Shown: piece by piece, positions 35,840 to 57,286 of the stretch
How the letters are laid out: the number at the start of each line of letters is the position of its first letter
Numbering within the stretch: position 1 is the first letter of the stretch
Source: Pelagibacteraceae bacterium AG-470-E16
GTDB taxonomy: Bacteria; Pseudomonadota; Alphaproteobacteria; Pelagibacterales; Pelagibacteraceae
NCBI GenBank assembly: GCA_003209195.1
Contig: QCSF01000002.1
Location: 1 to 64,000 of the forward strand
Reading direction: 5' to 3'
Length of the DNA: 64,000 bases
Made by a program: the position numbers and the translations under genes
Notes under the pieces: generated by a model
What the model was told of the DNA's origin: nothing
Seen by the model: only the letters and a program-made list of their open reading frames with translations
Database searches by the model: none

Positions 35840-37516
35840 TTACCAATTAATTTTGTAATCGATTGTCTCACTAATATTAATATTGCGAATATCATTCTTA
35901 ATTGAATTTTTATTCGAATAAATAATTTTATTTTTTTTAAATTTGTAATTTATATGCTTATAATTTTTGTAATCTGAATAAATAATTATAGGTTTATTAT
36001 AAATCAATGACTCTTCAATAGCTGTAGATGAATAACTAATCAGAACATCATTTACTAATAATTCGTCTATAAAACACTTATTTTTTGAGAAATTAATATA
36101 TTTATTTTCAACATTTATAATTTTCTTAAAAGTTTCTAATTCACATTCTGGACCTTCTCTAAATCTTATAGTTAATTTATGTTTATTTTGATTTGAAAAA
36201 TAATTAATTAAATTTTTTAAATTATAAACATACTCATTAAAATCTTCATAAATCCATGGCCATTTTGAAAGCGACTTAGGCGAACTAACGTGTAAAAAAT
36301 TAAAGTTATCTGAACTACTTTTAATTTTTCTAATTTTAATTTTTTTTTCGCCATATAATAAAGGTTGACTTCTAATTATTTTCTTTGAATGTTCATGAAA
36401 AGATATTGCATGTGCAGAGATTTTTGTCTGAGCATAGATTTTATCGGCCAAAGGGGAAAAAATCATACCACGACCACTAATTTTATTTACAAAACTTGCA
36501 TATTCATCACTCGGTGTAGACATTGAACCATGTGGAACTAGAAAAGTTTCAAAATCAATTTCTTTTGAGATATCAGCAATTATAGTCGGAATATCGTACC
36601 TCAACTGATCAGTATAAAATTTGATAATATTAATTCTAGACAGAAAGTTATAGTAACTTTTTCTACTTTTATATTGTTGGATGCAGTAATTTACTATTAT
36701 TTCTTTAAAATGTTTCTCAAGATACAAAAAATTATTATCAAGTAGATCCTTAAATATATTATTTATTAAATACTCAATTTCTTTAATATTTATTTTTTCT
36801 GCTGGATAACATGTAAAATAATAATGTTTTTTTTTATTAAAAATTTTTAATATATTAATAATGTTTAAAAATATGTGATATAAATTAAAATCAGAATGCC
36901 TGATTACCTCTAATATTCTTCTTTCTTTATCTGATGAAATTTTTAAAGATAATTTTTTACCGTATACTAATAAAGAGGGGGGGCCCTTCTTTAAAAAAAA
37001 ATTATTTAAGCAGATAAGAGTTTTTTTAAAAAAGGAAATTTTTTTTTTTTTTAAAAATAAGAAAAAACCTTGGTTTTTTTTATTTATTATTTTTTCTATA
37101 AAAAAACTTAAGAAAATCTTCTTGTCATTAAAATGTTGAACTTGATTATTATAAATTAATGCGTAATTTTTTGAGTCTATAGAATTATAATGAATGTATA
37201 AAAAAGAAAAAAGACTTATAAAAAAAACGCTATAAATATCTTCTCTTAATCCTCTACGTAAATTTTCTAATTCTTTAATATTTTTTTTGAATTTAGAGTA
37301 AATGTTTTGTGAAACTATAATAGTTTTTTTCTGATTCTGAACTAATTGATGTATATCAATTTTAATGATTTCGATATTATTTTTAAAATGAATAAACTTT
37401 TCAATACCAGGGCTAAAAATAAATATTTTATTTATATTAGTTATTTTTAATTTATTAAATTCTTCAACATCAGCTTTGTCGTAAAGGAAAATTATAATGT
37501 CTTTTTGATTTGACAT
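35840..37516 (-). CDS. GT-B-like surface-carbohydrate biosynthesis protein (second of three)
   Basis: The 558-aa protein has an N-terminal Rossmann-like stretch (IIIFLYDKADVEEFNKL), a long central domain, and a C-terminal GT-B-like half: FLVPHGSMSTPSDEY, FNFLHVSSPKSLSKWPWIYEDF, LTIRFREGPECE and DVLISYSSTAIEESLIYNKPIIIY. The S-S-T-A-x-E-E block matches the donor-binding part of capsule and surface-carbohydrate transferases. A run of seven G followed by three C at 36977-36986 encodes Pro-Pro near residue 178 and is unusual for this DNA. It begins the operon 37516-35840 downstream of the PglD-like gene, with no gap. Precise reaction unknown. Confidence 0.68.
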   Translation of the reverse strand: MSNQKDIIIFLYDKADVEEFNKLKITNINKIFIFSPGIEKFIHFKNNIEIIKIDIHQLVQNQKKTIIVSQNIYSKFKKNIKELENLRRGLREDIYSVFFISLFSFLYIHYNSIDSKNYALIYNNQVQHFNDKKIFLSFFIEKIINKKNQGFFLFLKKKKISFFKKTLICLNNFFLKKGPPSLLVYGKKLSLKISSDKERRILEVIRHSDFNLYHIFLNIINILKIFNKKKHYYFTCYPAEKINIKEIEYLINNIFKDLLDNNFLYLEKHFKEIIVNYCIQQYKSRKSYYNFLSRINIIKFYTDQLRYDIPTIIADISKEIDFETFLVPHGSMSTPSDEYASFVNKISGRGMIFSPLADKIYAQTKISAHAISFHEHSKKIIRSQPLLYGEKKIKIRKIKSSSDNFNFLHVSSPKSLSKWPWIYEDFNEYVYNLKNLINYFSNQNKHKLTIRFREGPECELETFKKIINVENKYINFSKNKCFIDELLVNDVLISYSSTAIEESLIYNKPIIIYSDYKNYKHINYKFKKNKIIYSNKNSIKNDIRNINISETIDYKINW

Positions 37517-38134
37517 TTATGGACGTTTATAACGATTTTTTTTGTATTTTGCGGGAACTCCATAGTATAAACCCTTTAAGCTTATATTTTTTACAACTGC
37601 TGTATTAATACCAGTCATAATTTTATCGCTAATTTTTATTTTTTCCCTAACAATAGTTCCAGATCCAATATAACATTCAGAACCGATAATTGAATTTCCT
37701 AAAATAGTACTATTTGGTGCAATATCCGTTAATAAGCCTATTTTAACACCATGATGAATATTTGATCCAACATTAATTTTACAACAATAGCCAATTTTAA
37801 CGTTATTTCCTAAAAAACAAAAACTTTGCACAAATGAACCTTCTCCAATTTTTATTTTCTCTCCCTTTAACGATCTGTTTGAAACATATGTTAAAACATT
37901 TTTTTTATATTTTTTTAAAAACTTCTTTCTAATCTGGAGCGGTCCCATAGCTATACAAATTTTTACATTCGGATTTTTTTTAATAAAGGCATCTATCTTT
38001 GAAAAAGTTCCCAAATATTTAATATTTGTTTTTTTTTTATTTCCAAAAAAACCTAAGATTTTGTGTTCAGAATTGTTTAACTCTAAAATTATGTCTTCTT
38101 CAGCGCCAATTAAAATAATTTCATTGCTTATCAT
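37517..38134 (-). CDS. PglD/NeuD-type sugar O- or N-acyltransferase (left-handed beta-helix)
   Basis: The 205-aa protein has an N-terminal Rossmann-like PglD domain (EIILIGAEEDIILEL) followed by hexapeptide repeats: SFVQSFCFLGNNVKIGYCCKINVGS, IAPNSTILGNSIIGSECYIGSGT and the closing MTGINTAVVKNI. The conserved catalytic His may be His128-129 in SNIHHGVKIG, equivalent to NHD/HHD in PglD. Such enzymes acetylate amino-sugars using acetyl-CoA. It overlaps the upstream GT2-cytidylyltransferase fusion gene by 14 bp and the downstream GT-B-like gene starts 1 bp before its stop region, so all three are in one operon. Confidence 0.85.
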   Translation of the reverse strand: MISNEIILIGAEEDIILELNNSEHKILGFFGNKKKTNIKYLGTFSKIDAFIKKNPNVKICIAMGPLQIRKKFLKKYKKNVLTYVSNRSLKGEKIKIGEGSFVQSFCFLGNNVKIGYCCKINVGSNIHHGVKIGLLTDIAPNSTILGNSIIGSECYIGSGTIVREKIKISDKIMTGINTAVVKNISLKGLYYGVPAKYKKNRYKRP

Positions 38135-39473
38135 AAAAAAAATTTTGGTATTTTTTGAAAGTGCTTTCGCTTCTTATTTCAAGCCAGCTTAAGTGATTAT
38201 CAACTCTTAATAATCCAACTTTTTTTCCTAATAAATTACCTTCTCTAATATATTCAGGATAAGTAATACAACATAGTCCGTGCAAACCTATATAGGTTTT
38301 TTTTTTTATTATTCTTGGAACATCGCCTTCATCAATTCTATTTATGTTTTTTTTTTCATCTTCTTTCCATAACCACCCATTTTCCTCCCGAGCAGCTAAG
38401 ATCGTATCATAACCGTGTTTCAATAGCTCTTCTATAGCATTATCAATTAAATCTGTATCTCTAAAAGGAAAAGTTTCTTCCAAATGTACTATTAAATCAG
38501 GAAATATTTTTAATTTCTCTAATTCATTCATTGAAAATTTTTGAACCATCTCCAAATTAGTATTCGGATCTGACAGATTTTGAGGTCTTGCAAATGGACA
38601 TTTTGCACCAAGATCTTGAGCTATTTTTTTAGTTAAATCATTATCAGTTGAAACGATTACATCTTTTATATATTTTGATTTTTTTGCAACATTAATGGTG
38701 TATGCAATAAGATAATCATTATTGTTCTTTATAGGCATGCCTTTTGATGGAATTATACAATATATATCTAAATCGTCTGGTTTTATATTTCCCTCAATAA
38801 AGTTTTTGTCTTGTTTTTTAATTATATTAACCACATTTTTAAGTCTTGTGACATTACCGTCCTGATGAATTCCATGAAAATGATACACTGGAGCACTTGG
38901 CTCATAAACTAATTTATAGCCAGCATCAATGATTTTTTGACCCCATATCCTATCTTCTATATTTGAGATTCTCTCATCAAATTTAATTTTTTTCCAAATT
39001 TCTTTTCTAATCATTGAATTTGCGTTATGAAAAAAACTATCCTTAACCTGAATCTTTTTATCCAAACCAAAAACAAGAAATAAATCTCTTTTGTCACTAT
39101 CTTTTGAAAATTCCATCGGTACTTGTCTTCCATATGTGCCAGCAACATCTTTATTTTTAAAATTATTAAGTAATCTTTCTAACCAATCTTCCTCTATAGG
39201 TATGCAATGGGCTGATAAACAGACAATAAATTCTCCTGAACTTTCTGCGATACCTTTGTTTAAGGCATAACCAGGCAAATAATCATCAATTAATACTATC
39301 TTCTTTACTCCATGTATTTTCGCTTTCTCCACAGTTTTATCGTCGCTTTTGTTATCAACTAATATTATTTCATAATCTTTGTTATTTTGCTTCTTAATAG
39401 CGTTTAAACATCTAGATATCCATCTTTCCTCATTTTTAGTCCTTATAATTATTGATACTTTAATGTTCTTCAT
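38121..39473 (-). CDS. Fusion: GT2 glycosyltransferase plus CMP-sugar-synthetase-like domain
   Basis: This 450-aa protein joins two cytoplasmic domains. Residues 1-225 are GT2: VSIIIRTKNEERWISRCL, IILVDNKSDDKT, GYALNKGIAESSGEFI, LSAHCIP in the DxD position, MIRKEIW and NIEDRIWGQKI. Residues about 237-450 resemble NeuA-type acylneuraminate cytidylyltransferases: IYCIIPSKGMPIKNNN, AKKSKYIKDVIVSTDND, RPQNLSDPNTNLEMVQ, HLEETFPFRDTDLID and LLRVDNHLSWLEI. The consensus IPARGGSKGxPxKN is shortened and the Arg missing, so catalytic competence is uncertain. A single start at ATG 39473 overlaps the neighbouring dehydrogenase stop. Activation and transfer could be coupled in one chain. Confidence 0.85.
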   Translation of the reverse strand: MKNIKVSIIIRTKNEERWISRCLNAIKKQNNKDYEIILVDNKSDDKTVEKAKIHGVKKIVLIDDYLPGYALNKGIAESSGEFIVCLSAHCIPIEEDWLERLLNNFKNKDVAGTYGRQVPMEFSKDSDKRDLFLVFGLDKKIQVKDSFFHNANSMIRKEIWKKIKFDERISNIEDRIWGQKIIDAGYKLVYEPSAPVYHFHGIHQDGNVTRLKNVVNIIKKQDKNFIEGNIKPDDLDIYCIIPSKGMPIKNNNDYLIAYTINVAKKSKYIKDVIVSTDNDLTKKIAQDLGAKCPFARPQNLSDPNTNLEMVQKFSMNELEKLKIFPDLIVHLEETFPFRDTDLIDNAIEELLKHGYDTILAAREENGWLWKEDEKKNINRIDEGDVPRIIKKKTYIGLHGLCCITYPEYIREGNLLGKKVGLLRVDNHLSWLEIRSESTFKKYQNFFYDKQ

Positions 39474-40507
39474 AATAAACCTATGCCAATGTTTTTAGAT
39501 ATTTCTCTTAATTTTTTATACAAATCTTTATCTACAGGAATTCCGGATACTCTCCTTTTTCTTTCAGTTTCGTATTCAACATCATTTGGTAAATAAATTT
39601 TACCTTTATTTTTAATAGTTTTTTGATTTTTTATCTCTAAAGACATTTTTTTTAAATTTTGAACAAATTTTTTTTTACTTACGAATTGATCAGTTTTCAA
39701 AATAATATAATATTGTCCTAATCTTCTAGGTTGTTTTATACTACTATTATACATCGGGGGTATATTTGATCCATAATTCATACCTAAAAAAATTGAACAT
39801 AAAATCTCTATCATTGCAGCTAAACCAAAACCTTTATACCCACCGATTGAAGTTAGACATTCTGCGTTGCTTGGGTTAGTTGTATATTTTCCGTGTTTGT
39901 CAACCGCAAGACCAGATGGTAATTTCTTTCCTAATCTTTTATAATTTAATAATTTGTTCCAATTTATATTAGTTGTTGCCATATCTAAACAAAATGGTTT
40001 TTTTGAATTTCCTGGAACTGCAAAACATAATGGGTTTGTGCCAAAATAAGGTTTTTTAGCACCATATGTTAATTGTAATGAATCTGCGTGCGTAAATGCA
40101 AAGATTATAAATCCTTTTTCTACACCGTGCAATGCGATGCTTGCTAAGGCGCCTGGATGACTAGAATTAACTACTCCAACAGAACAGATTCCATTTTTTT
40201 TTGCAATTTGACAGCCTTTATCAATTGCTTTAATTCCAGCTGAGATACCATAACCATTATCTGCATCTAATAAATAACTTGAATTAAATTTTTTATAGAA
40301 TTTAAATTTAGGTTTTGGATTTTTTCTCCCATTTAATACTGAAGAAACATAATGAGGAAAAAGATTTATACCGTGCGAATCAGTTCCTCTTAAAGAGGCT
40401 TTGCACAGACCTTCTGCAACATATTTTCCACAAAAATTATTAACTCCTATTTTTATTAAACTTTTTTTACAAAATTTCAATAAATCATTATATTTTATAA
40501 ACCTCAT
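39470..40507 (-). CDS. Ldh2-type malate/L-lactate dehydrogenase family oxidoreductase
   Basis: The family catalyses NAD(P)H-dependent reduction of 2-keto acids or cyclic imino acids and has its own fold unrelated to Rossmann LDH. The 345-aa protein shows CKASLRGTDSHGINLFPHYV (substrate His and Arg), YLLDADNGYGISAGIKAI, GICSVGVVNSSHPGALASIAL, GTNPLCFAVPG and SIGGYKGFGLAAMIEILCSI. Length and motif order are normal. It starts at ATG 40507, 2 bp after the Gfo/Idh gene. Members occurring in glycan loci probably reduce the 2-keto group of a sugar acid; here that is an inference. Confidence 0.9.
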   Translation of the reverse strand: MRFIKYNDLLKFCKKSLIKIGVNNFCGKYVAEGLCKASLRGTDSHGINLFPHYVSSVLNGRKNPKPKFKFYKKFNSSYLLDADNGYGISAGIKAIDKGCQIAKKNGICSVGVVNSSHPGALASIALHGVEKGFIIFAFTHADSLQLTYGAKKPYFGTNPLCFAVPGNSKKPFCLDMATTNINWNKLLNYKRLGKKLPSGLAVDKHGKYTTNPSNAECLTSIGGYKGFGLAAMIEILCSIFLGMNYGSNIPPMYNSSIKQPRRLGQYYIILKTDQFVSKKKFVQNLKKMSLEIKNQKTIKNKGKIYLPNDVEYETERKRRVSGIPVDKDLYKKLREISKNIGIGLL

Positions 40508-40509
40508 TA

Positions 40510-41643
40510 TTATATATTTATCATTTTACCATTGTATTTAATACTTTGGTTTACGGCTTCTATGACTTTTGTTGTTACAAGTGAATCAATGAAAGTTTTA
40601 TTAAGTACTTTAAAATTTTTATTTTTATTATTAATGGATTCAAAAAAGTTCAATATACTTTTGATACCATACCCACCAAAATAAAAATCTTCAGAAAAAA
40701 ATAAATTTGTAAAATATGGATTTATATGTCTAGCATCTTTTCCTTCTTCAGTTGATAGAATTCCTCTATTTTTTTGATCAGAAAAATATTTTGATCTATC
40801 CCCTACAAAATGAATTTTTTGATCCGAAGTTGCTGTAGAAGAATTGGGATCTATCCAACTCGTAATAATATATGAATTAAATCTTAAATTACTTTTTCTC
40901 CATTCAATATTAGCCTGAACACAATCGCAAGAATTTATTTTTCTTTTCTTTAAATATCCTGATTGTTGCCAAGCCCATACTTTTGTTGGAACAAATCCTG
41001 TTAAATAATAAATTAAATCAACATAATGAATTCCCAAATATTGAAAACTATTACTCTTTGAAGACCAATTTTTAAAATATTTTTGTGGAATAATTCTTTT
41101 TTGACTATATTCGACAGTGCAATATTTTAATATACCAAGTTTTTTTTCATTCAAAAATTTTTTAAGTATTAAATTTGCCTCATCAAACCTCTTATGAAAT
41201 TCTACCTGAAAAACTCTGTTTTTACCTCTTGTATAATAAATTAATTTTTTTGCATCTTTATATGAAGTCACTAAAGGCTTAACAACTAGTAAATGTTTAT
41301 TTTTTAGGATAACATTTTTACAAATTTCAAAATGTGTGTGGTCAGGTGTAGCTACAATAACAGAATTAGGGTTAAATTTGGTTAATGCTAACTTATATAA
41401 TGATGACCCATTACCAGGAAAATACTTAACAGAATTTTTTTTTAATTTTATTTTTAATTTTTTTGCTAAACTTAAAAATTTTATTACACATTGTTTTGAA
41501 CTTTTATTCTTTGTTGATACAAAACATACATTATTAATAAAATTTTTTTTATGAGCTTCCAAGATACCTGGTATAATAGTTCCATAATCGTTTTCTGTTG
41601 ATCCCTGAACGTACATTCCACTTCCTATAACCAATAAATCCAT
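40510..41643 (-). CDS. Gfo/Idh/MocA-family oxidoreductase
   Basis: This 377-aa NAD(P)-dependent oxidoreductase has LLVIGSGMYVQG at 3-14 (Rossmann glycine motif), VIVATPDHTHFEIC, LLVVKPLVTSYKDAKKL (the usual EKP read as VKP), FQVEFHKRF, and FQYLGIHYVDLIYYLTG with the family's catalytic His-x-x-D. The start was set to ATG 41643, just outside the upstream flavoprotein gene; a TTG at 41676 would overlap it. The EKP Glu is replaced by Val but the Lys is retained. It is part of the run 44970-38121 on the minus strand, whose combination of enzymes suggests processing of a keto-sugar acid. Confidence 0.88.
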   Translation of the reverse strand: MDLLVIGSGMYVQGSTENDYGTIIPGILEAHKKNFINNVCFVSTKNKSSKQCVIKFLSLAKKLKIKLKKNSVKYFPGNGSSLYKLALTKFNPNSVIVATPDHTHFEICKNVILKNKHLLVVKPLVTSYKDAKKLIYYTRGKNRVFQVEFHKRFDEANLILKKFLNEKKLGILKYCTVEYSQKRIIPQKYFKNWSSKSNSFQYLGIHYVDLIYYLTGFVPTKVWAWQQSGYLKKRKINSCDCVQANIEWRKSNLRFNSYIITSWIDPNSSTATSDQKIHFVGDRSKYFSDQKNRGILSTEEGKDARHINPYFTNLFFSEDFYFGGYGIKSILNFFESINNKNKNFKVLNKTFIDSLVTTKVIEAVNQSIKYNGKMINI

Positions 41644-41644
41644 T

Positions 41645-42712
41645 TTATAAATATTTCCTAACAATATATTTAGCAATTGAAAAACATGACGTTAAACCTG
41701 GTGACTCTATACCAAACAAATTGATCCAATTATAATGTTTAACTTTTTTAATGTAGAAGTCAGTATATGATTTAGAGAACGTCTCAATTTTAGGTCTTAG
41801 TCCTTTTTTCAAAAATCTTATTTTTTTTATGTCTATGTTTGAATGTATTTGTCCTAAGAATTTGACGAATTTAAGTTTAACGTCATCCACATTAATTTTA
41901 GCTTTTTTTTCAACACTAGGACCTAGCAAATAACCCCCTGAAATTATTGGAGAAATATCTACTCTTTCCATATTTTTTCCTGGGCTCATAGCTGGATATA
42001 TAATTCTATTAACTCTGAGATCTTGTTTTGTTTTAAAATACATTCCCCATACCGGTTTATCGATAGGAAAATTTGCAGTTTTAAATGTAGAGTTTGCTAT
42101 TTTAATAGCTCCAACACCGGCTGCATTAATAACTAAATCATACTGATGATGTTTAGTATTTTTAAACATAAATTTATTTTTTTTAAAAAAACCTTTGCTA
42201 ATTTTAGTATTAAAAACAAATTTTACATTATTCTTTCTACATAAATAATAAAGTTTTTTTAAAAAACTTTTTACATCAAAAATACCAGAAGATTTCGATA
42301 ATAAAGCATATTTAGCTTTAATAGAGGGCTCTAATTTCATAATTTTATTTTGTTTAATAATCTTTACATCTTTAACATTATTTTTTTTTGCATTTTTATG
42401 CATTCTTTTAATTAATTTAAAATCTTTTGATGAATTACCAATAAAAAGTTTTTGTGTTTTTTTAAATAGGATTTTATATTTTTTACAAAACTTATATATT
42501 AATACTTTACCCTCCACACATAGTTTTGCTTTTAAAGAATTATTTTTGTAATAAACACCTGAGTGTATTACTTCCGAATTTTGATTAGTTGCACCTAAAC
42601 CTAAATTTTTATTTTTTTCAAATAATATAACTTTAAATTTTTTTTTTTGTGAAATTTCGTATGCTAAACTTAGTCCAATCACGCCACCGCCAATTATTAA
42701 AATATTTTTCAT
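41645..42712 (-). CDS. FAD-dependent 2-hydroxyacid oxidase/dehydrogenase (LhgO-like, DAO superfamily)
   Basis: The 355-aa flavoprotein has the dinucleotide motif ILIIGGGVIGLSLAYEI at residues 4-20, GLGATNQNSEVIHSGVYY at 38-55 (Ser/His segment of the L-2-hydroxyglutarate oxidase subgroup), LVINAAGVGA, GMYFKTKQDL, SPGKNMERVDISPIISGGYLLGPS and LFGIESPGLTSCFSIAKYI at the C-terminus. The last block is the FAD-ribityl part conserved in LhgO. It presumably oxidises a 2-hydroxy acid to a 2-keto acid, complementing the Ldh2-type reductase two genes downstream. Its ATG overlaps the end of the aminotransferase gene by one base. Confidence 0.88.
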   Translation of the reverse strand: MKNILIIGGGVIGLSLAYEISQKKKFKVILFEKNKNLGLGATNQNSEVIHSGVYYKNNSLKAKLCVEGKVLIYKFCKKYKILFKKTQKLFIGNSSKDFKLIKRMHKNAKKNNVKDVKIIKQNKIMKLEPSIKAKYALLSKSSGIFDVKSFLKKLYYLCRKNNVKFVFNTKISKGFFKKNKFMFKNTKHHQYDLVINAAGVGAIKIANSTFKTANFPIDKPVWGMYFKTKQDLRVNRIIYPAMSPGKNMERVDISPIISGGYLLGPSVEKKAKINVDDVKLKFVKFLGQIHSNIDIKKIRFLKKGLRPKIETFSKSYTDFYIKKVKHYNWINLFGIESPGLTSCFSIAKYIVRKYL

Positions 42713-43776
42713 TAAATAATTTTCTTTAAATTTCTTATAAAAAATTTCATTTCTTTTTTTGGACCAATTGTAACTAATAAAGAACTTTTAAATATATTTT
42801 TAAAGCCATAACGTACAGAAATTTTATTTATTAATAATTTTTTATAGATTTGTGTTGCTATTTTTTTTGATTTAAAATTAATCAATATATAATTTCCATT
42901 AATACCTCCGTAAAATGTCAAATTTAATTTATTTAATTCATTTTTCACATATTTTACTCCAGATTTTACATTAGAAACATACTCTTCTACAATCATCTTA
43001 TTTTTAATTATAAATTCAGCAGCCGAAACAGATAAAATGTTAGTTTCATATCCTCCTTTACATAAATTTAAAACTTTAATATTATTTTTTGAGGAAACTA
43101 AATATCCAATTCGTGCTCCTGCAAGTCCATAAGCTTTTGAAAAAGACCTCATTATAATTAAATTCTTATATTTTTTAATTAAGTTTAAACTCTTACTTTG
43201 TCCAAATGGAAAATAAACTTCATCAATTGCAACCATGATATTTTTAGAATCTAATTTATTAATTAGTGAATTGATTTGTTCTTCTTTAATTTCACCTTCA
43301 ATTGGAATATTAGGCAATGGTAAAAAAACGATAACTGTATTCTTATTAATTAAATCGTAAATTTTATTGTAATCTAATTTAAAATTTTTATTATAACTAT
43401 AGACTCTGCCTCTAACATTGTAAATTTTAGTATAAATTTCGTAAAGAGCAAAGCTGGGGTTTGGATAAATAATTTCACTTTTTCTATTTAATTCAAGTGA
43501 GTCCATTATATTTTTTATCGCTCCTGATACTCCTTCTGTAAATAATATATTTTCTTTTTTTACTTTGATAGATTTTGATAATACATGGTATTGCTCCTTT
43601 AAATTTGGATAATAATTGATTTTTTTTTTTAACAAAAATTTGTAAAGTTTTTTATTTTGAGCCTTTGAATACCCAGTTATATTTTCATTTCTATCTAAAT
43701 TTAAAACATAATTCGATCTATTAGAAAAATTATCTTTTCTTTGAAGTTTTTTCAAATGTTTTTTAAATTTAGCCAA
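42712..43776 (-). CDS. Class I/II PLP-dependent aminotransferase, HisC-like
   Basis: The 354-aa protein has LNLDRNEN at 26-32 (usual LxxNEN), FTEGVSGAIKNI at 79-90, PNPSFALYEIY, LPLPNIPIEG at 152-161 in the place of NPNNPTG, MVAIDEVYFPF with Asp185, and SFSKAYGLAGARIGY with the PLP Lys214. These place it in the HisC/CobD branch of fold type I. In this neighbourhood it would aminate a keto-sugar or keto-acid rather than make histidine. The start is TTG at 43776, since no ATG fits the family N-terminus. It lies 1 bp after the CMP-sugar synthetase gene. Confidence 0.88.
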   Translation of the reverse strand: MAKFKKHLKKLQRKDNFSNRSNYVLNLDRNENITGYSKAQNKKLYKFLLKKKINYYPNLKEQYHVLSKSIKVKKENILFTEGVSGAIKNIMDSLELNRKSEIIYPNPSFALYEIYTKIYNVRGRVYSYNKNFKLDYNKIYDLINKNTVIVFLPLPNIPIEGEIKEEQINSLINKLDSKNIMVAIDEVYFPFGQSKSLNLIKKYKNLIIMRSFSKAYGLAGARIGYLVSSKNNIKVLNLCKGGYETNILSVSAAEFIIKNKMIVEEYVSNVKSGVKYVKNELNKLNLTFYGGINGNYILINFKSKKIATQIYKKLLINKISVRYGFKNIFKSSLLVTIGPKKEMKFFIRNLKKII

Positions 43777-43777
43777 C

Positions 43778-44464
43778 TTATTTATAATATCTTAATTTAT
43801 ATTTGGTTTTTTTTAATAATATAGAAGCTAATTTTAGATCACTTTCATATTTTATTATCATACCGGAATGTTTACTGACTTCAAAATAACCAACCTTACC
43901 ATGCAAAATACCATTCCCATTTTCTTCGTATGACTTAATAAAACTTTTTGAGTTCCATATCATTTGAGTATAAACCATAAGTTCTATAGGTATCAAATTT
44001 TGAGTTTTTTCAAACTTACTATTTGTTTGAAAATTTAAAGGTTTTTTATTTTTTATTGCATGATTAAAAAATTTATTCGTTGTAATCAAGCTATTAAATT
44101 TTTTTTTTTTAAAGTAATTAACTGCATTTTTAATCTCATCAAATGATTGAAGAGGTGCAATAGAGTTAACCCAAACAAGTATATCGCAAAAATTTTTTTT
44201 TAGAAAATCATAAACAACCTCGTCAGATTTTGTTGCAGAAGAACCTAATTTTTTTGGTCTTAAATAAAAATTAATTTTATTGTTTATTGAAATTTTTTCA
44301 AAAATTTCACTATCAGAATTTATAAAAATTTTATCAAATACTTTTGATTTTTTTGCTGCATTAATTGCGTATGAAATTAGTGGCTTATTGTTCAATAATG
44401 CTAAATTTTTTCTTTTTAATCTCTCACTACCAATTCTTGCTGGTATCATTGCAAATATTCTCAT
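43778..44464 (-). CDS. CMP-sugar synthetase, NeuA-like (acylneuraminate cytidylyltransferase family)
   Basis: The 228-aa enzyme activates an ulosonic-type acid with CTP. It has FAMIPARIGSERLKRKNLALLN at the N-terminus (IPAR-x-GSxRLxxKN nucleotide loop), LISYAINAAKKSKVFDKIFINSDSE, FYLRPKKLGSSATKSDE, LVWVNSIAPLQS and a C-terminal half that keeps the family fold but lacks the usual LDIDxxxD ending. ATG 44464 overlaps the stop of the acyltransferase gene by one base. It is separate from the nonulosonic-acid synthetase at 60146 and has no NeuB partner nearby, so its substrate is probably the acid produced by the neighbouring aminotransferase and dehydrogenases. Confidence 0.88.
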   Translation of the reverse strand: MRIFAMIPARIGSERLKRKNLALLNNKPLISYAINAAKKSKVFDKIFINSDSEIFEKISINNKINFYLRPKKLGSSATKSDEVVYDFLKKNFCDILVWVNSIAPLQSFDEIKNAVNYFKKKKFNSLITTNKFFNHAIKNKKPLNFQTNSKFEKTQNLIPIELMVYTQMIWNSKSFIKSYEENGNGILHGKVGYFEVSKHSGMIIKYESDLKLASILLKKTKYKLRYYK

Positions 44465-44970
44465 TATCGCTCCCTAATTACTTTACACGGAGCCCCAGCA
44501 GCAACTACATTTTCTGGTATATCTTTATTGACTAAAGAATTTGCTCCTATCACAGTGTTTTTTCCAATTTTAACTCCTTGTAAAATTGTCACGTTTGAAC
44601 CAATCCAAACATTATCGTTAATTTTAATTGGTTTACAAATTACTCCCTGATCTTTTATAGCTTGATCTTTTTTCATAAAATTATGACTGGATGTGATCAT
44701 TGTAACTCCACATCCTATTGAAACATCATCTCCAATATCAATTTCAGATTGAGCATCAAAATAACAAAATTGATGTATCGAAACCCTATTACCAATAGAG
44801 ACGTTCTGTGGGTGATTAATTACCACTGAATCTAAAATATTGAATTTACCAGAACTGCTCTTAAAAATTCTTCTATATATAAAACTTCTGATTTTTATAA
44901 ATAAATCAAACGGGAAATATCTTAATAATAATACAATTTTAGTGAAAACTTTTTTAATTACTGTACTCAT
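44464..44970 (-). CDS. Hexapeptide-repeat acyltransferase (WcaF/Maa-like)
   Basis: This is a left-handed beta-helix protein of 168 aa: VVINHPQNVSIGNRVSIHQF, IDIGDDVSIGCGVTMITSSHNF (His of the catalytic SSHNF), then KINDNVWIGSNVTILQGVKIGKNTVIGANSLVNKDIPENVVAAGAPCKVI. The NVWIGSNV and GAPCKVI blocks are diagnostic for the NodL/WcaF/maltose-acetyltransferase group. A short basic and hydrophobic N-terminus may lie on the membrane. It starts the minus-strand run toward the fusion gene. Acetyl or other acyl transfer to a sugar hydroxyl is likely. Confidence 0.9.
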   Translation of the reverse strand: MSTVIKKVFTKIVLLLRYFPFDLFIKIRSFIYRRIFKSSSGKFNILDSVVINHPQNVSIGNRVSIHQFCYFDAQSEIDIGDDVSIGCGVTMITSSHNFMKKDQAIKDQGVICKPIKINDNVWIGSNVTILQGVKIGKNTVIGANSLVNKDIPENVVAAGAPCKVIRER

Positions 44971-47681: not shown

Positions 47682-48401
47682 TTATACTATTTCTATTAGA
47701 TAAAAATGATGAATTATATTCGAACCATTAGAAATTATATTAAAGTCTTTATTATATACATGTGACCATGATCGAAAAGGATCTTTTTTATTTTGTAAAA
47801 TTCTTATTTTTAAATTAAATTTGAATACTTTCTTTTTCAATTTTATTTTTCTTAAAGTTGCAGATAAAGAACTTAACGAAAAAACATTCCACCCCTTCTC
47901 TAATATTTTGCTATTTTTTCTTTTTAATCTTACTATAACATCTACATCATACGGATTCCAAATCCCAAAAATAAAAATTTTACTTTTTTTATTTTTTTTC
48001 AAACTTTTTAGTTTTTTTAGAATTGGTAGTAACTCATCAAAAATAGAGTGAACACCTAACATGAATATATAGTCAAATTTTCCAATTTTATTTTTTCCTA
48101 AAATATCGCACTTAAAAACTTTATTCATAAACTCTTCTTTTTTTACTTTATTAAATAACTTAGAATTAATTTCTACTCCATTTAGATTTGAGGAAGGGTA
48201 AAGTGTTTTAATATATCTTAAAAAATCACCAGTAGCACACCCCACGTCAAGAATATCTTTGTGATTTAAATTTTCTTTAACTTTTGATATTATAAACTTA
48301 TAATATTCCTTAACCTTTGTTTTTTCTTTAAGATAAAAATTATCATGTACTCTTTTTTCCTTGAATGCGTTGCTAATCATCGATACCTGTTCCGTTAACA
48401 T
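47682..48401 (-). CDS. Class I SAM-dependent methyltransferase
   Basis: The 239-aa protein shows KDILDVGCATGDFLRYI at about 47-63 (SAM motif I), LNGVEINSKLFNKV (acidic motif II) and GKFDYIFMLGVHSIFDE (motif IV). It lacks further specific blocks. The start is ATG 48401, overlapping the WbpG-like gene by 29 bp; a second ATG at 48380 would overlap by 8 bp. It is the first of a run together with the GT-A and GT-B-like genes. The methyl acceptor is unknown. Confidence 0.84.
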   Translation of the reverse strand: MLTEQVSMISNAFKEKRVHDNFYLKEKTKVKEYYKFIISKVKENLNHKDILDVGCATGDFLRYIKTLYPSSNLNGVEINSKLFNKVKKEEFMNKVFKCDILGKNKIGKFDYIFMLGVHSIFDELLPILKKLKSLKKNKKSKIFIFGIWNPYDVDVIVRLKRKNSKILEKGWNVFSLSSLSATLRKIKLKKKVFKFNLKIRILQNKKDPFRSWSHVYNKDFNIISNGSNIIHHFYLIEIV

Positions 48402-49587
48402 TGTGTCTCAAATACCACTGCCCTTTATATTTTTTCCATAAATGTGGAGATCTAAATTTGTTAAGGTTTTTAAAAAAAATTTTTTTAGGTATATCCAAGT
48501 ATTTTAATATTTCATTAAAGTACCTTGATGGAAATTCACCGTCATATTTAGCAATTAATTTTTTTCCTTCCTCAATCGTCAAATGATCATTACGAAGTTC
48601 TTGTGAAACATCATAAGTTGCTCTTCCAATTCCAAACTTAGTGAACAAAGTATAAAAGTGAAGATCATCTATTTTGTCGTCTATACTATTGTATTTGCTA
48701 TACGTACCTTGAGTTCTGAACGGTCTCGGTTGGAATTTACAATTTTCAACAGAATAGTAATAGGTTTCTTGAGGTACCCAATTTAAATAGTATCCCAAAT
48801 AATGTATTTCTAGGGGAAAATTACCTAGTTCTTCTTTTGTTGGCGGTAAATAATTTTTAAGACTTTCATATTTCATATTATATTTTTTGTTAAGTTCAAC
48901 GTATTTAACACCACCCAAATATACTTCATCAAGATTTTCAAAGGTATATTGAGATTTTGATTTTAATGAAGTGTTATTATCACCTATAGGATTTCCATGT
49001 TCAGCTTCATTTTCGCCGTAAAAAATCAGAGGTATCTTATACTTCAAAGCAATTCTTATTGGAAAGTTTTTTTGACCTAAAATAAAAGATTGAAACGGAT
49101 GCATTAAATTTAAAATTGCCAATTTAGTCAAAATTTTTGTGTCACGTTCATTTCTCTTAGCAGCTATATTTTTAAATTTTCCACATTTTATCCAATTATG
49201 AAAATTTTTATATCCATATGTGGTATACAAAATTGGAGGCCAAGTAACTGTTAAAGGGTTCATACCGTATTTATATTTTAATATATGAGAAGCGTAACAA
49301 CTATCTTTCCCACCACTTCCGGGTACAATACAATCGTAATTATTGTATTTTCCTCTGTGTAATTTTAAAAGTTTTAAAAGTTTTTTTTCTCTTTGATCAA
49401 AATCAATTAATTTTTTTTTTCTTGAGTATTTCCACGCATCAGAAATCATTTCTTTATCAATATTAATTGTTTTTTTTACAGAATTAAATTTATGTTTAAA
49501 TTCAATAATTGAATTTGGTCTTTGATTAGAGATCAAAGATTTTTTACAAAATATTACTTTTTTAGGTAGTCCAAATAAAGTTTTCAT
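48373..49587 (-). CDS. wbpG: N-acetyl-sugar amidotransferase (WbpG/PseA-like PP-loop enzyme)
   Basis: The family installs an amidino group on an acetamido-sugar, using ammonia from HisH/HisF-like partners. This 404-aa protein has IVPGSGGKDSCYASHIL with the PP-loop SGGKDS at 91-96, TVTWPPILYTTYGYKNFHNWI, PLIFYGENEAEHGNP and YYSVENCKFQPRPFRTQGTYSKYNSIDDKIDDLHFY split over two blocks, all characteristic. The N-terminal zinc-ribbon region is altered: Cys14 is present, but the expected second Cys is Ser17 and the second CxxC pair reads Ser49-x-x-Trp52. It overlaps the HisH-like gene by 4 bp. Confidence 0.92.
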   Translation of the reverse strand: MKTLFGLPKKVIFCKKSLISNQRPNSIIEFKHKFNSVKKTINIDKEMISDAWKYSRKKKLIDFDQREKKLLKLLKLHRGKYNNYDCIVPGSGGKDSCYASHILKYKYGMNPLTVTWPPILYTTYGYKNFHNWIKCGKFKNIAAKRNERDTKILTKLAILNLMHPFQSFILGQKNFPIRIALKYKIPLIFYGENEAEHGNPIGDNNTSLKSKSQYTFENLDEVYLGGVKYVELNKKYNMKYESLKNYLPPTKEELGNFPLEIHYLGYYLNWVPQETYYYSVENCKFQPRPFRTQGTYSKYNSIDDKIDDLHFYTLFTKFGIGRATYDVSQELRNDHLTIEEGKKLIAKYDGEFPSRYFNEILKYLDIPKKIFFKNLNKFRSPHLWKKYKGQWYLRHNVNGTGIDD

Positions 49588-50213
49588 ACCTTCAAATCCA
49601 AAATTTTCTTAATTAATTTAACACCATCCATATGACTTTTTTCAGGGTGAAATTGAATACCAAAAATATTATTATCTACAAATGAAGAGCAAATTTTTTT
49701 GTCATCATGACAGATATAGGATGTGATTATCTTTTTTTCTTTGGGAATTCCGTAAAATGAATGAGAAAAATAAAAAAATTTTTTATTAAAATTTGAAAAT
49801 AATTTTTTTTTTACTCCGTTTAATTCTCTCCATCCTATATTTGGAACTAAGGAATTTTTATTAGAAAGTTTATCTACTTTTCCTGGAACCAAACCTAGAC
49901 CTTTATAAAATCCAAACTCAGAACTACTATCAAATAACATTTGCATTCCAAGACAAATGCCAAGTAATTTCTTTTCTTTTATCTTTGAATAGCTTATAAT
50001 TTCGCTAGCTAAGTTAATTTTGAATAATCTTTTCATACCTTCTTTATAGGTGCCATCTCCTGGAAGAACAACTAAGTCAAATTTTTTTAAATTTGTATAA
50101 TTGTCAATTATAGAAATTTTTAAATTTAGGTATTTAAATAATTGACAAATGCTGAAAATATTATTTAATTTTAAATTAACTATCCCAATTTTAAGATTTT
50201 TATAATCTGACAC
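49584..50213 (-). CDS. HisH-like glutamine amidotransferase (glutaminase subunit)
   Basis: The 209-aa protein is a class I glutaminase: LVVLPGDGTYKEGM, LLGICLGMQMLFD with the nucleophile Cys87, and FGIQFHPEKSH with His189 and Glu191. It would hydrolyse glutamine and pass ammonia to the HisF-like partner encoded just downstream of it in the same operon. The start is GTG at 50213, overlapping the HisF-like gene's end by 14 bp. Placement between the HisF-like and WbpG genes identifies it as the surface-glycan paralogue (as in Pseudomonas O-antigen loci), not the histidine pathway enzyme. Confidence 0.9.
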   Translation of the reverse strand: MSDYKNLKIGIVNLKLNNIFSICQLFKYLNLKISIIDNYTNLKKFDLVVLPGDGTYKEGMKRLFKINLASEIISYSKIKEKKLLGICLGMQMLFDSSSEFGFYKGLGLVPGKVDKLSNKNSLVPNIGWRELNGVKKKLFSNFNKKFFYFSHSFYGIPKEKKIITSYICHDDKKICSSFVDNNIFGIQFHPEKSHMDGVKLIKKILDLKV

Positions 50214-51039
50214 AAATTTTATTTCTTTTTAAAAATTTTTTGAGTTTGACTAAATTATTATTAAATTTTTTTTTTTGAAAATTTTTTAAAAAAAAATAAT
50301 TTCCAATTTTTTTTTGTTTTGTTTTACTTTTTATAAAATTTAAGGCATCATAGTGTAGTAAACTAGATAATGATACTCCTGAAATATTTGAAGATCTGAT
50401 TACATCGTAAACATGTTTAAAATTACCTGCTCCACCATGTGCAATTATCGGTATCTTTGTAAATTTTGATATTTTTTCATAAAGCTCCAAATCAAACCCA
50501 TTTTGCAAACCTTCACTATTTATACTTGAAATTGTTATTTCCCCGGCTCCAAAATCTTGCAACCTTTTGAACCAATCCACAGGATTTAAGGATGTCATGT
50601 TTCTTCCATTTTCTGTAGAAACATAATACTTATTTTCAAACTTAATACTTTCAATAGAGCAATTAATAGTCGATGAACCAAATCTTTTTACAGCTTTTTT
50701 TAAAAAACTCAAATTTTTAACAATAGCTGAGTTTATAGAAACTTTATCAGCACCAGAATATAAAAACTTTTCTATAGCTTTGATATCCCTAATACCTCCA
50801 CCAACCGTTATAGGTATAAAAATATTTTTAACTGTTTCTGTTATAAACTTAGACAGATTATTAGTTCCATATAGTGAAGCAACTACATCAATATAGGAAA
50901 TCTCATCAGCGCCCTTATCAAAATAACATTTTACAAATGCGGAGGGATCACCTAAAATTCTTAATCCTTCAAAGTTAATTCCTTTTATCAAAAAGCCGTT
51001 TTTAATTTCCAATCTTGGTATAATTCTTATTGGCACCAT
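50200..51039 (-). CDS. HisF-like (beta/alpha)8 protein with both catalytic Asp replaced by Glu
   Basis: The 279-aa TIM barrel follows HisF: IRIIPRLEIKNGFLIKG at 4-20, DEISYIDVVAS, ITVGGGIRDIKAIEKF, SGADKVSINSA, GAGEITISSINSEG and IPIIAHGGAGNFKHVYD. At the positions of the two catalytic aspartates of histidine-pathway HisF (Asp11 and Asp130 in Thermotoga numbering) this protein has Glu11 (PRLEIKN) and Glu130 (CSIESIK). The C-terminal 50 residues are unusually basic. Together with HisH and WbpG it forms the ammonia-delivery triad for amidino-sugar synthesis, so it is unlikely to cyclise the histidine intermediate. Confidence 0.9.
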   Translation of the reverse strand: MVPIRIIPRLEIKNGFLIKGINFEGLRILGDPSAFVKCYFDKGADEISYIDVVASLYGTNNLSKFITETVKNIFIPITVGGGIRDIKAIEKFLYSGADKVSINSAIVKNLSFLKKAVKRFGSSTINCSIESIKFENKYYVSTENGRNMTSLNPVDWFKRLQDFGAGEITISSINSEGLQNGFDLELYEKISKFTKIPIIAHGGAGNFKHVYDVIRSSNISGVSLSSLLHYDALNFIKSKTKQKKIGNYFFLKNFQKKKFNNNLVKLKKFLKRNKICVRL

Positions 51040-54532: not shown

Positions 54533-55693
54533 TTAATTATAATCGAAAAACTCTTTATATTTATTGTCTTTGAATATTTTTTTCTTAAAAATTTTTATAA
54601 TTTTTTTTGCGGTATTTCCTCTTCCATAAAAATTATTTCTAAAAGAATTAGTGAAAATTTTTTTTTCATTTTTAATAACCCACCTTAAATTATTTTTTAA
54701 TTTATTATGAGATATTTTTTTTAAATTGATAATATTTGGGTCTTTAATCCTTCCATCTTGTCTACTGCCAATATTTATTATTGGTAATCCTAAAAAAGGT
54801 AATTCAATAATTCCACTTGATGAATTTCCAATTATAGCAGAAGCGAATTTAGCTAAAGATATATAGCGCAAATGTCCTAAGGATTTAAATACGAATATAT
54901 TTTTATATTTTTTTTTGTATTTAAATAATTTATTAATAATTTTGTCACTACCAATATCAATATTGGGAAATGTGAAAATAAGATCAAACTTTTTAAAACT
55001 TATTAAAGATTTAAGCAGTATATTAAATTCTTTTTCTGAAAGTTTCGGATACATAGATAGAGGCTGATAAGTAATTAAAAAAAACGGATTATCCAAGTGA
55101 ATTTTTAAATTCTTTTTAAGTTCATCTTTTTTTAAAAATTTCATTTTTAAGATACCATCAATTGCCAGCGACCCTACATTAAAAATATTTGAGGGATTTT
55201 CCCCCAATTGATTAACTCTTCTCTTATAATTTATATTTGAAACAAAATGATAATTTGACATTTTTGTTATAGAATGACGTATATGATCATCAACTAAATA
55301 TTTAGTTAGTTCCCCGCCATGTAAATGACATATCTTAATACCTTTTAATAATGATGCATAAGCTATTGGAATAAGATCAATCCTATCACCTAGAATAATC
55401 AAATAATCTATTTTTTTTTTTTTAAGATATTTTGAAAATTCAATCTGTAAATTTGATAAACTAACATTCAGTTTTAAAAAATCATCTGATTCAAATTTAC
55501 ATTTTAATTTATCATATTTAATATTATCGTTTTTTACCTCCTTATATGTATAACCATATTTTTTTGAAAAATGAGTTCCTGATAATAACAATGTAAATTT
55601 AATTTTTTCTTTCTTAAACTCAGGAATTAAATACTTTAAAAAACTATAATCACTTCTTGATCCTGAATAAATTAAAATTTTATTTTTTTTCAT
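54533..55693 (-). CDS. legG: UDP/GDP-N-acetyl-hexosamine 2-epimerase, hydrolysing (NeuC/LegG)
   Basis: The 386-aa protein has ILIYSGSRSDYSFLKYLI at the N-terminus (the SGSRSDY/GTRSDY motif of NeuC), YLIILGDRIDLIPIAYAS, ICHLHGGELTKYLVDDHIRHSITKM, FVSNINYKRRVNQLGE, FNVGSLAID, and FASAIIGNSSSGIIELPFLGLPIINIGSRQDGR. These define the hydrolysing 2-epimerase that gives the 6-carbon amino-sugar acceptor for NeuB/LegI. Length is normal. It overlaps the neuB-like gene by 14 bp, indicating an operon. Confidence 0.93.
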   Translation of the reverse strand: MKKNKILIYSGSRSDYSFLKYLIPEFKKEKIKFTLLLSGTHFSKKYGYTYKEVKNDNIKYDKLKCKFESDDFLKLNVSLSNLQIEFSKYLKKKKIDYLIILGDRIDLIPIAYASLLKGIKICHLHGGELTKYLVDDHIRHSITKMSNYHFVSNINYKRRVNQLGENPSNIFNVGSLAIDGILKMKFLKKDELKKNLKIHLDNPFFLITYQPLSMYPKLSEKEFNILLKSLISFKKFDLIFTFPNIDIGSDKIINKLFKYKKKYKNIFVFKSLGHLRYISLAKFASAIIGNSSSGIIELPFLGLPIINIGSRQDGRIKDPNIINLKKISHNKLKNNLRWVIKNEKKIFTNSFRNNFYGRGNTAKKIIKIFKKKIFKDNKYKEFFDYN

Positions 55694-56690
55694 AAAAATA
55701 ATCTCTTAAAATTGGATCACCTTTTCTAATTTTTCGTTTAACTCTTCGCCCAAGAATTTTATACCAATTATTTGCTGGTAAATATGTTTCGGGTCTTTTT
55801 GTACAAATATTGTGAATGTTCAATTTTTCATTTTTGTTAATATTTTTTGATGCAAAAATTGATTTTCTTATAACTTTTTTATTTCTTAATTCTTCATTTG
55901 ATCTCTCAAATCTTTTATTTCCAAAAATAAATTTTGTTTTTTTAAGTGAAAAAACATAAGACTTGAATTCATTAGGTTCCATACTTGAAGAATGATCAGG
56001 CCCTAAAAATTTTTTGCTTAACGTAATATGCTTTTCAACTAAACTTACACCATAAGCTAAACTTATTTGACCTGCTATTTGTCCAACCGTATGATCGGAG
56101 AACCCTAAATCACAATTCAAAAGCTTTAAATCATTTAAAAAATTTAGATTCACTTTATCTAAACTGGTTGGATATAATGACGTGCAATGCATGAGAGTTA
56201 TTCTTTTTTTTTTATTTTTTTTTAAAATTTTTAAAGCAGATTTAATTTCGTCTAATGTTGCCATGCCTGTTGATAAAAAAATTTCTTTAAAATTTTGTGA
56301 AATTTTTTCTAACATAGGAAAATTGGTAATTTCTCCTGATGGAATTTTAACTCTAGATAATCCTAGTTTTTTAAGATTTTGACAACTCTTTATATCAAAC
56401 GGAGAACTTAGAAATTTTATTTTTTTTTTTTTAGAATAATCCAATAATTTTTTCTGCTGATCGAAACTTAATTCATATTTTTTTAATAATTCATATTGTG
56501 TTTTACTGTTATTTTTTTTTTGATACCCAGCAAGCTTCGCTTTTCGGTGTACTAGATCACTTGTTATGTATGATTGAAATTTAACGTAATCGGCTTTTGC
56601 GTTTGATGCATGATCAATTAATTTTTTTGCATATTCTAACCTTCCATTATGATTAACGCCAATTTCGGCAATAATTTTTATTTTAGACAT
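55680..56690 (-). CDS. legI: Nonulosonic-acid synthase (NeuB/LegI)
   Basis: The enzyme condenses phosphoenolpyruvate with a hexosamine to form a 9-carbon ulosonic acid. The 336-aa sequence has IIAEIGVNHNGRLEYAKKLI, ADYVKFQSY, KFLSSPFD, VKIPSGEITNFPMLEKI, FLSTGMATLDEIKSAL, LMHCTSLYPTS, LGFSDHTVGQ, LVEKHITLSKKFLGPDHSSSMEP, and a C-terminal SAF domain KSIFASKNINKNEKL with KRPETYLPANNW. Motif order is complete. It belongs to the legionaminic or sialic-acid type group; the exact product depends on the upstream enzymes. Confidence 0.94.
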   Translation of the reverse strand: MSKIKIIAEIGVNHNGRLEYAKKLIDHASNAKADYVKFQSYITSDLVHRKAKLAGYQKKNNSKTQYELLKKYELSFDQQKKLLDYSKKKKIKFLSSPFDIKSCQNLKKLGLSRVKIPSGEITNFPMLEKISQNFKEIFLSTGMATLDEIKSALKILKKNKKKRITLMHCTSLYPTSLDKVNLNFLNDLKLLNCDLGFSDHTVGQIAGQISLAYGVSLVEKHITLSKKFLGPDHSSSMEPNEFKSYVFSLKKTKFIFGNKRFERSNEELRNKKVIRKSIFASKNINKNEKLNIHNICTKRPETYLPANNWYKILGRRVKRKIRKGDPILRDYFYEKK

Positions 56691-56694
56691 TATT

Positions 56695-57282
56695 TTATAA
56701 ATCGTTTTTTCCTAAAATTACTCTTCCAGCCTGTACTATAGTGAATGGAGGTATTGTAATCTGTTGCTTAATAACTGCACCACTCCCAATAAAACAATTA
56801 TTTCCAATCTTTACACCTCCGTTTATTATGGCGCCTGGCGCAATGTGAACATCATCGCCAATTATACAATCATGCTCAACTATTGCTCCATTGTTAATAA
56901 TTACATTATTACCTAATGAGACGTTAGTATTAACAATTGCATGGTTCATAATTATAGATCCATCACCAATTATCGATGATTTAGATAAATAAGAACTCTT
57001 TGAAACAATTTTTGGTAAATTAAATCTTAAATCTATAAGTTCACTATATATTTTTGATCGTAATCTTAAATTCGTTATTTGTCCTATTCCGATATGAGCT
57101 AATTTAATATTTTTGTTAAATATTTTTATTAAGTTTTTCCTATCATAAAATAGCACTGAGGCAGAAATATCTTTCTTCTCTTTTGTTAAATAATAAGAAA
57201 TTTTATACTTTTTTAAATTATTTATAACCTCTACACATGATTTGGAATGGCCACCAAATCCTACTATTAAAATTTTTTTCAT
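56695..57282 (-). CDS. PglD/NeuD/LegH-type acyltransferase
   Basis: The 195-aa protein combines an N-terminal Rossmann-like segment (ILIVGFGGHSKSCVEVI) with a left-handed beta-helix: GDGSIIMNHAIVNTNVSLGNNVIINNGAIVEHDCIIGDDVHIAPGAIINGGVKIGNNCFIGSGA (given as two halves). The EHDCIIG His and the HIAPGA block are diagnostic of PglD/NeuD. It would transfer acetyl (or another acyl) to the C4 amine of the UDP- or GDP-4-amino-4,6-dideoxy sugar, the LegH step. It lies 4 bp after the aminotransferase gene's end. Confidence 0.9.
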   Translation of the reverse strand: MKKILIVGFGGHSKSCVEVINNLKKYKISYYLTKEKKDISASVLFYDRKNLIKIFNKNIKLAHIGIGQITNLRLRSKIYSELIDLRFNLPKIVSKSSYLSKSSIIGDGSIIMNHAIVNTNVSLGNNVIINNGAIVEHDCIIGDDVHIAPGAIINGGVKIGNNCFIGSGAVIKQQITIPPFTIVQAGRVILGKNDL

Positions 57283-57286
57283 ATAA

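Follow-up and report, generated by a model that had tools for sequence, protein, structure and literature searches.

This study concerns a candidate surface-sugar gene cassette in the window, a stretch of 64,000 nucleotides of contig QCSF01000002.1 from the SAR11 organism Pelagibacteraceae bacterium AG-470-E16. In the genome contig scan, close relatives of the cassette carry the names Pelagibacteraceae or Pelagibacterales. The cassette lies within a run of seven consecutive minus-strand genes at 38121-44970, which overlap or abut at spacings of -32 to +2 bases, as the initial annotation had stated. The gene names given there likewise agree with Pfam and NCBIfam, which describe the run as a hexapeptide acyltransferase, a CTP_transf_3 protein, a HisC-like aminotransferase, a DAO/LhgO-like oxidase, a Gfo/Idh oxidoreductase, an Ldh_2 dehydrogenase and a family 2 glycosyltransferase (GT2) fused to a second CTP_transf_3 domain. 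Four of these genes constitute the core of the cassette:

43778..44464, minus strand: divergent CTP_transf_3 (cytidylyltransferase-like) protein of 228 amino acids (PF02348, 80.7 bits)
40510..41643, minus strand: Gfo/Idh/MocA-family NAD(P) oxidoreductase (PF01408/PF02894)
39470..40507, minus strand: Ldh2-type (malate/L-lactate/ureidoglycolate family) dehydrogenase (PF02615, 313 bits)
38121..39473, minus strand: GT2 glycosyltransferase fused to a degenerate cytidylyltransferase domain (PF00535 and PF02348)

Recurrence of the core was assessed by scanning one genome per species with four SAR11 cytidylyltransferases as queries, and all loci examined derive from single cells or metagenome bins. 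The scan gave 31 clade loci at 39-64% identity, the next-best matches being sister groups at about 33-38%, and in the tree these loci and the window protein form a single group of 32 rows (support 97/86). Their hosts include Pelagibacterales, other Alphaproteobacteria, Desulfobacula, Deltaproteobacteria, Planctomycetes and Omnitrophota, together with Bdellovibrionales, Aminicenantes, Saganbacteria, Legionellaceae, Parcubacteria and others. Homologues of the Gfo/Idh, Ldh2 and GT2-fusion genes are each found near 24 of the 31 clade cytidylyltransferases, with all three present in 21 loci, and near none of 49 control CMP-synthetases from the same scan (12 sister-clade and 37 other loci; Fisher p 2e-14 for one partner, with relatedness uncorrected). 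The grouping of the core is thus not due to chance; it is a real recurring unit in distant phyla. That the genes are merely a random neighbourhood in a hypervariable glycan island could be argued from the patchiness of the region, the clade occurring in only 4 of the 148 genomes searched (window genome counted), yet for the core this explanation is contradicted by the contrast of 24/31 with 0/49 across phyla and is highly improbable. The prediction of the initial annotation that the genes are no random neighbourhood in related genomes therefore holds for the core, and the suggested search for the same gene set in other islands bears it out in part: the core recurs across phyla, whereas the HisC-like and LhgO-like genes do so only in SAR11 and alphaproteobacterial loci.

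The order of the cassette genes is shuffled between lineages, and a Parcubacteria member and an alphaproteobacterial member lie very close in the tree, so that transfer is suggested. These observations suggest that the cassette is horizontally mobile, with binning errors in metagenome-assembled genomes as an alternative. A phage origin was also considered and dropped, as the phage and viral collections held no convincing relative. Nothing on this gene set was found in the open literature searched, which covers only part of the field; new here are the cross-phylum cassette and a clade of cytidylyltransferases without metal ligands.

This clade departs from the known CMP-sugar synthetases at the catalytic metal site. 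The protein encoded at 43778 matches NeuA from N. meningitidis (1eyr; phmmer E 5e-10) and misses the curated family cut-offs of PseF (73.3 versus 205.7), PRK05450.1-5 (52.7 versus 193) and kdsB (27.1 versus 155.2). Like NeuA, LegF and PseF, it belongs to PF02348 and retains the CTP-binding residues: in N. meningitidis NeuA numbering, used throughout with counts over the 32 clade members, R12, S15, K21, N22 and R71 are invariant in 32/32. Unlike in those enzymes, Asp209 is replaced by Ile, Leu, Val or Glu in 32/32 and Asp211 by Lys in 31/32, both Mg2+ ligands being lost in 31/32, while Arg165 has become Thr and Gln104 has become Asn in every member. In the window protein the DxD motif reads IxK (I203/K205). 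Profile-profile alignment reproduces the register of the Asp209/Asp211 replacement, and canonical CMP-synthetases from the same loci keep Asp/Asp in 11 of 11 cases. The sole clade member with Asp at position 211 (locus L073) has none of the cassette partners. Sister-group proteins at four loci (L075, L076, L077 and L080) carry Lys at the Asp211 position with no cassette partners nearby, and the Lys change is therefore not unique to the cassette.

The cytidylyltransferase domain of the GT2 fusion is similarly altered. Its P-loop is lost and E-x-R stands where DxD is expected, with Glu at the 209 position in 27/27 sequences and Arg at the 211 position in 24/27. As both domains lack the catalytic Asp pair, their designation as CMP activators in the initial annotation is doubtful. 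One explanation would be that neither the 43778 protein nor the fused domain is catalytic, both serving as CMP-sugar-binding or scaffold subunits of a glycosyltransferase complex, and that the dehydrogenases supply an ordinary sugar acid or an acyl precursor. The absence of DxD from both domains, the additional loss of the P-loop from the fused one, and the joint presence of a 43778-type protein and the GT2 fusion in 24 of 31 loci are consistent with this idea. However, the invariant CTP contacts of the stand-alone protein argue for purposeful nucleotide binding, and the locus neighbourhoods show no recurrent acyl-carrier or ligase genes alongside the core; the explanation is considered doubtful. 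The clade might instead be a cytidylyltransferase that works without metal, with a basic residue, Lys here and Arg in the fused partner, taking over the role of the catalytic Mg2+. Paired with the GT2 fusion, it would then activate an acidic unit that Ldh2 and Gfo/Idh, joined in SAR11 by LhgO and HisC, produce without condensation of phosphoenolpyruvate (PEP); in this full form the proposal is improbable. In broader terms, the loss of the Mg2+ ligands means that the 43778 protein probably modifies or activates an acidic surface sugar by unfamiliar means.

Relatives of the GT2 fusion in three further genomes (G042, G073 and G077) were considered as instances of the same cassette and rejected, as they accompany a canonical-looking CMP-synthetase, with DxD kept in the alignment, and a 3-deoxy-D-arabino-heptulosonate 7-phosphate (DAHP) synthase. 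They represent a sister module (loci L039, L040 and L041) composed of the GT2-cytidylyltransferase fusion, the canonical-looking CMP-synthetase, a Gfo/Idh protein and the DAHP synthase; AroE-like and carbamoyltransferase genes were also identified in L040.

The two core oxidoreductases are intact. The Ldh2 protein exceeds the gathering score of PF02615 (313.2 versus 38.8 bits), aligns over its full length to sulfolactate and ureidoglycolate dehydrogenases, and possesses the SHG histidine motif, DSHG being invariant across four homologues. For the Gfo/Idh gene, homologues and sequence favour ATG 41643 over the listed TTG, and this ATG is probably the true start. None of the run's proteins reaches an NCBIfam functional cut-off in the family scans, and for this reason their substrates cannot be read from the family names. 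Naming the substrates through Ldh2, Gfo or LhgO subfamily scores was likewise dropped, since no curated cut-off was reached.

Around the core lie a frequent partner, a set of genes added in SAR11, and a variable neighbour:

35840..37516, minus strand: frequent partner, GT-B-fold protein (no Pfam match; AlphaFold2 model)
37517..38134, minus strand: SAR11 add-on, NeuD/PglD-like N-acyltransferase (TIGR03570, 121.6 bits, under the cut-off of 160.8)
41645..42712, minus strand: SAR11 add-on, LhgO / type-2 GlpO-like FAD oxidase (PF01266, 146 bits)
42712..43776, minus strand: SAR11 add-on, HisC-like pyridoxal phosphate (PLP) aminotransferase (TIGR01141, 197.6 bits, under the cut-off of 276.55)
44464..44970, minus strand: variable neighbour, WcaF-like hexapeptide acyltransferase (family scan)

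Homologues of the 35840-37516 protein, 550-690 amino acids in length, occur in 17 of the loci examined, the hhalign comparison of its group with the neighbour family c7 giving an E of 7e-49. Its AlphaFold2 model (pLDDT 84) adopts a GT-B fold with a Z of 13.8, and the protein is probably a glycosyltransferase for the cassette's unit. VIA-align matches are mainly to UDP-sugar epimerases and GT-B enzymes, a polysialyltransferase appearing only in the Foldseek list, and these mixed structural matches point to no particular donor type.

The HisC-like protein keeps the PLP-lysine motif SFSK, and the LhgO-like protein matches NF033460 over its full length, below the cut-off, and NF008726 over N-terminal residues 3-266 only (175.7 versus 299 bits, also below the cut-off). 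Cassettes with both genes were confined to the window and L044-L048, six loci that are all SAR11 or alphaproteobacterial. The initial annotation had assigned all seven genes to one pathway; the HisC and LhgO genes are instead an add-on in these six loci. HisC alone as a query gave no match in the first genome contig scan, and LhgO as a query against plasmids returned only generic 25-30% matches. One further genome (G022) has the core without HisC and LhgO, with a close LhgO relative about 26 kb from that core. In the HisC loci, the gene after the core encodes either a NeuD-like acyltransferase (window, L044 and L046) or a formyltransferase (L045 and L036/L048, based on PF00551 in L045 and L036), and in L047 neither was recognised at this position. 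From gene families and position, the pattern would fit oxidation, amination and N-acylation, and the N-acyltransferase probably belongs to the add-on.

The WcaF-like gene is also found at L045; in its place L044, L046 and L048 have a family with a weak GDSL-hydrolase match, which L047 has two genes upstream. Two proteins without a Pfam match (window 44977-46740 and 46746-47681) are neighbours of the cassette here as well as in L044 and L036/L048.

A separate role for the add-on would be the supply of serinol phosphate for amide decoration, apart from the core, with LhgO converting glycerol 3-phosphate to dihydroxyacetone phosphate and HisC converting the latter to serinol phosphate. The full-length match of the LhgO-like protein to type-2 glycerol-3-phosphate oxidase is in line with this route, and there is a precedent in the C. 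jejuni capsule, for which Cj1437 transaminates dihydroxyacetone phosphate to (S)-serinol phosphate (PMC11800397). The likeness to Cj1436/Cj1437 lies in transamination or decarboxylation serving capsule decoration (PMC11800397); those enzymes need an amide ligase and a phosphatase, however, and the family scans recognised neither in the window run. In addition, both the LhgO-like and HisC-like matches fall under curated cut-offs, and the other SAR11 relatives of HisC lie in CMP-synthetase/aldolase cassettes (L151 and L154) or adjoin a partial CMP-synthetase-like frame (L152). The serinol phosphate route is accordingly judged distinctly unlikely.

Cassettes with a HisC-like aminotransferase and a short-chain dehydrogenase/reductase (SDR), most of them with a CMP-synthetase-like gene, were seen in five SAR11 relatives (L151:4404-7923, L154:7488-11018, L152:3-2625, L153:141-3716 and L149:1510-6503). 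Those of L151 and L154 include an HpcH/HpaI-type aldolase, and L153 has an HMGL-like open frame; the five look like CMP building-block sets without NeuB.

The surroundings of the run bear directly on whether PEP condensation is involved. On the same strand, the window contains the following genes:

48373..51039, minus strand: WbpG/HisH/HisF-like trio, associated with amidino-group installation (BLAST mapping, neighbourhood clusters)
55680..56690, minus strand: NeuB-type PEP-condensing nonulosonate synthase (TIGR03569, 368 bits, cut-off 399.65; PF03102)
54533..61746, minus strand: rest of a CMP-legionaminic-acid-type set, comprising NeuC, NeuD, LegC-like, LegB-like, PtmA-like, CMP-synthetase and Gfo/Idh (family scan)

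The NeuB gene lies 11 kb upstream of the 38121-44970 run, and the canonical CMP-synthetase, with its DID motif kept, is encoded at 60146-60829. From the run upstream, the order is two proteins without an assigned family, a methyltransferase, the WbpG/HisH/HisF-like trio, PtmE-like, NeuC, NeuB, NeuD, LegC-like, LegB-like, PtmA-like and CMP-synthetase. LegB, LegC, a NeuC-type hydrolase, a NeuB-type synthase and a CMP-synthetase, the set that defines a CMP-legionaminic acid pathway, are thus present together, and the same set accompanies the cassette in L155/G015. The exact nonulosonate is unproven, because only NeuC scores above its cut-off. The trio is also near the cassette in L049, L053, L060 and L065.

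The claim that the operon has no PEP-condensing enzyme must therefore be abandoned, given that the same-strand run reaches 61746 and includes NeuB, NeuC, LegC, LegB, PtmE, PtmA and a canonical CMP-synthetase. What survives of the proposed non-standard unit is a recurring gene set distinct from the sialic-type pathway, which has its own CMP-synthetase nearby, with redox and amination genes intact; the absence of a NeuB-type synthase does not. Overall, the initial observation was largely right, and more general than stated, while its interpretation was half right. Elsewhere in the window, at 1020-5371 on the plus strand, a KdsA/DAHP_synth_1-like enzyme, a CBS protein, an HpcH/HpaI aldolase, two SDRs and a KdsB-like cytidylyltransferase stand in a row and resemble a CMP-ulosonate set. 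With this set and the NeuB set, the island already has routes to CMP-activated ulosonates.

The association with NeuB extends beyond the window. NeuB (PF03102) was detected in 25 of 26 carrier genomes tested, against base rates at E 1e-40 of 113/299 phylum genomes (Fisher p 2e-9) and 82/148 relatives (p 2e-5). In the NeuB-less carrier (G154/G062), the contig breaks off immediately before the formyltransferase on its upstream side, at the place that NeuC and NeuB occupy in the window. On carrier contigs longer than 40 kb, NeuB is 5.5-55 kb from the cassette in 13 of 14 cases (median 9.7 kb). In the window and ten other loci, a canonical CMP-synthetase shares the island. Loci L060 and L037 have, like the window, a NeuB-type synthase; in L049, L050 and L065 it is of the PseI type and scores well above the cut-off. 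A link of the cassette to one nonulosonate type was consequently dropped, given the PseI-type synthases beside it in Desulfobacula. An HMGL-type aldolase-like protein adjoins a cytidylyltransferase at L061:2401-4710 and L068:13103-15462, that of L061 passing the kdsB cut-off.

Together, these observations raise the possibility, tentatively favoured here, that the genes form a mobile auxiliary cassette for tailoring, or for building, an acidic-sugar unit of surface glycans rich in nonulosonates. The cytidylyltransferase-like protein would bind a cytidine nucleotide or CMP-sugar, and Gfo/Idh and Ldh2 would oxidise and then reduce an acidic sugar, altering a stereocentre or substituent. By position, the substrate may be a nonulosonate or some other ulosonate that the island produces, and the GT2 fusion and the GT-B protein would attach the unit to the glycan. 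In SAR11, the LhgO-like protein could additionally oxidise a hydroxyl, the HisC-like protein aminate the resulting ketone, and the NeuD-like or formyltransferase-like enzyme N-acylate the amine. The sister module has its own DAHP synthase, which scores above the TIGR01361 cut-off; a PEP-condensing enzyme therefore does accompany the GT2 fusion there, in support of this proposal.

Several points weigh against tailoring of a nonulosonate. The NeuB base rates come from other lineages and the carriers are not independent; glycan islands collect pathways, so that the NeuB association is one of linkage and not of substrate; and one contig of 162 kb (L074) has the cassette without NeuB. As the cassette accompanies PseI-type and NeuB-type synthases alike, no single nonulosonate is the obvious substrate, and the loss of DxD may mean a dead domain. 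Furthermore, the substrates of known Ldh2 enzymes are 2-oxo or 2-hydroxy acids; C2 is the only such site in a nonulosonate, and its reduction would block glycosidation. Since the site of action of characterised Ldh2 enzymes is adjacent to a carboxylate, a point in favour of the 2-hydroxy/2-keto acid idea, the cassette is only tentatively proposed to tailor, or to make a companion to, a nonulosonate-type unit.

On that idea the unit would arise independently of PEP: Ldh2, aided by LhgO in SAR11, would turn an existing aldonic- or uronic-type acid into a 2-keto acid by oxidation of its C2 hydroxyl, Gfo/Idh (with HisC) would adjust another carbon, and the cytidylyltransferase pair would activate the product with a basic residue in place of Mg2+. 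2-Hydroxy acids are substrates of the Ldh2 and LhgO families alike, the core itself is without NeuB, and the cassette accompanies different nonulosonate types and, on the 162-kb contig, none of the NeuB kind. The invariant CTP-binding residues also agree, as does the basic residue at the Asp211 position in 31/32 clade members and 24/27 fused domains. Conversely, 25 of 26 carriers have NeuB, and all 32 clade members have Thr where NeuA has its carboxylate-binding Arg165, which is odd for an acid activator, although PseF-type neighbours vary there too. Moreover, N. meningitidis NeuA is crippled by substitution of either residue of the Asp pair, D209A abolishing activity and D211A lowering kcat 15,000-fold (PMC2901514). 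A PEP-independent acid unit is thus possible and less favoured than tailoring.

The analysis describes a small cassette, widely transferred, that serves a surface sugar and occurs in SAR11, dominant in the surface ocean, and in many uncultured phyla; its cytidylyltransferase breaks the family's catalytic rule while keeping the nucleotide site. If the cassette does tailor nonulosonates, new sialic-acid-like residues would be predicted in ocean bacteria, with a bearing on phage receptors and cell-surface diversity.

Known systems offer parallels to such tailoring. In the Kdo8N pathway of Shewanella, KdnA/KdnB act with KdsB, so that oxidation and transamination of a ulosonate go together with a CMP-synthetase. 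The SAR11 genes resemble this in pairing oxidation and transamination near a CMP-synthetase, and differ in using other enzyme families, an FAD oxidase and a HisC-like aminotransferase. The aci modules extend the CMP-legionaminic acid (lga) pathway in Acinetobacter (PMC5595891), and the cassette is similar to aciABCD/aciE and elaABC in placing extra oxidoreductase genes beside a legionaminic-acid pathway, where those modules make epimers (PMC5595891, PMC9676051). In contrast to the cassette, AciB and AciE are SDRs, and the parts of these reports consulted describe no Ldh2, LhgO, HisC or GT2 fusion (PMC5595891, PMC9676051). The EpaA/EpaB pair of Acinetobacter prophages, a CTP_transf_3-aldo-keto-reductase fusion and an SDR, converts pseudaminic acid (Pse) to 8-epiPse atop a full Pse pathway, and the CTP_transf_3 domain of EpaA shares no significant sequence identity with the nonulosonate enzymes known from Acinetobacter (PMC12053666). 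Compared by description only, the cassette differs from this pair in having Gfo/Idh, Ldh2 and the GT2 fusion, and resembles it in adding a CTP_transf_3 domain and two oxidoreductase activities to a nonulosonate pathway (PMC12053666). In gene layout, as distinct from sequence homology, the cassette thus matches the 8-epimerisation modules of the Epa/Ela/Aci type, with auxiliary oxidoreductases and a divergent CTP_transf_3 protein beside a complete nonulosonate pathway.

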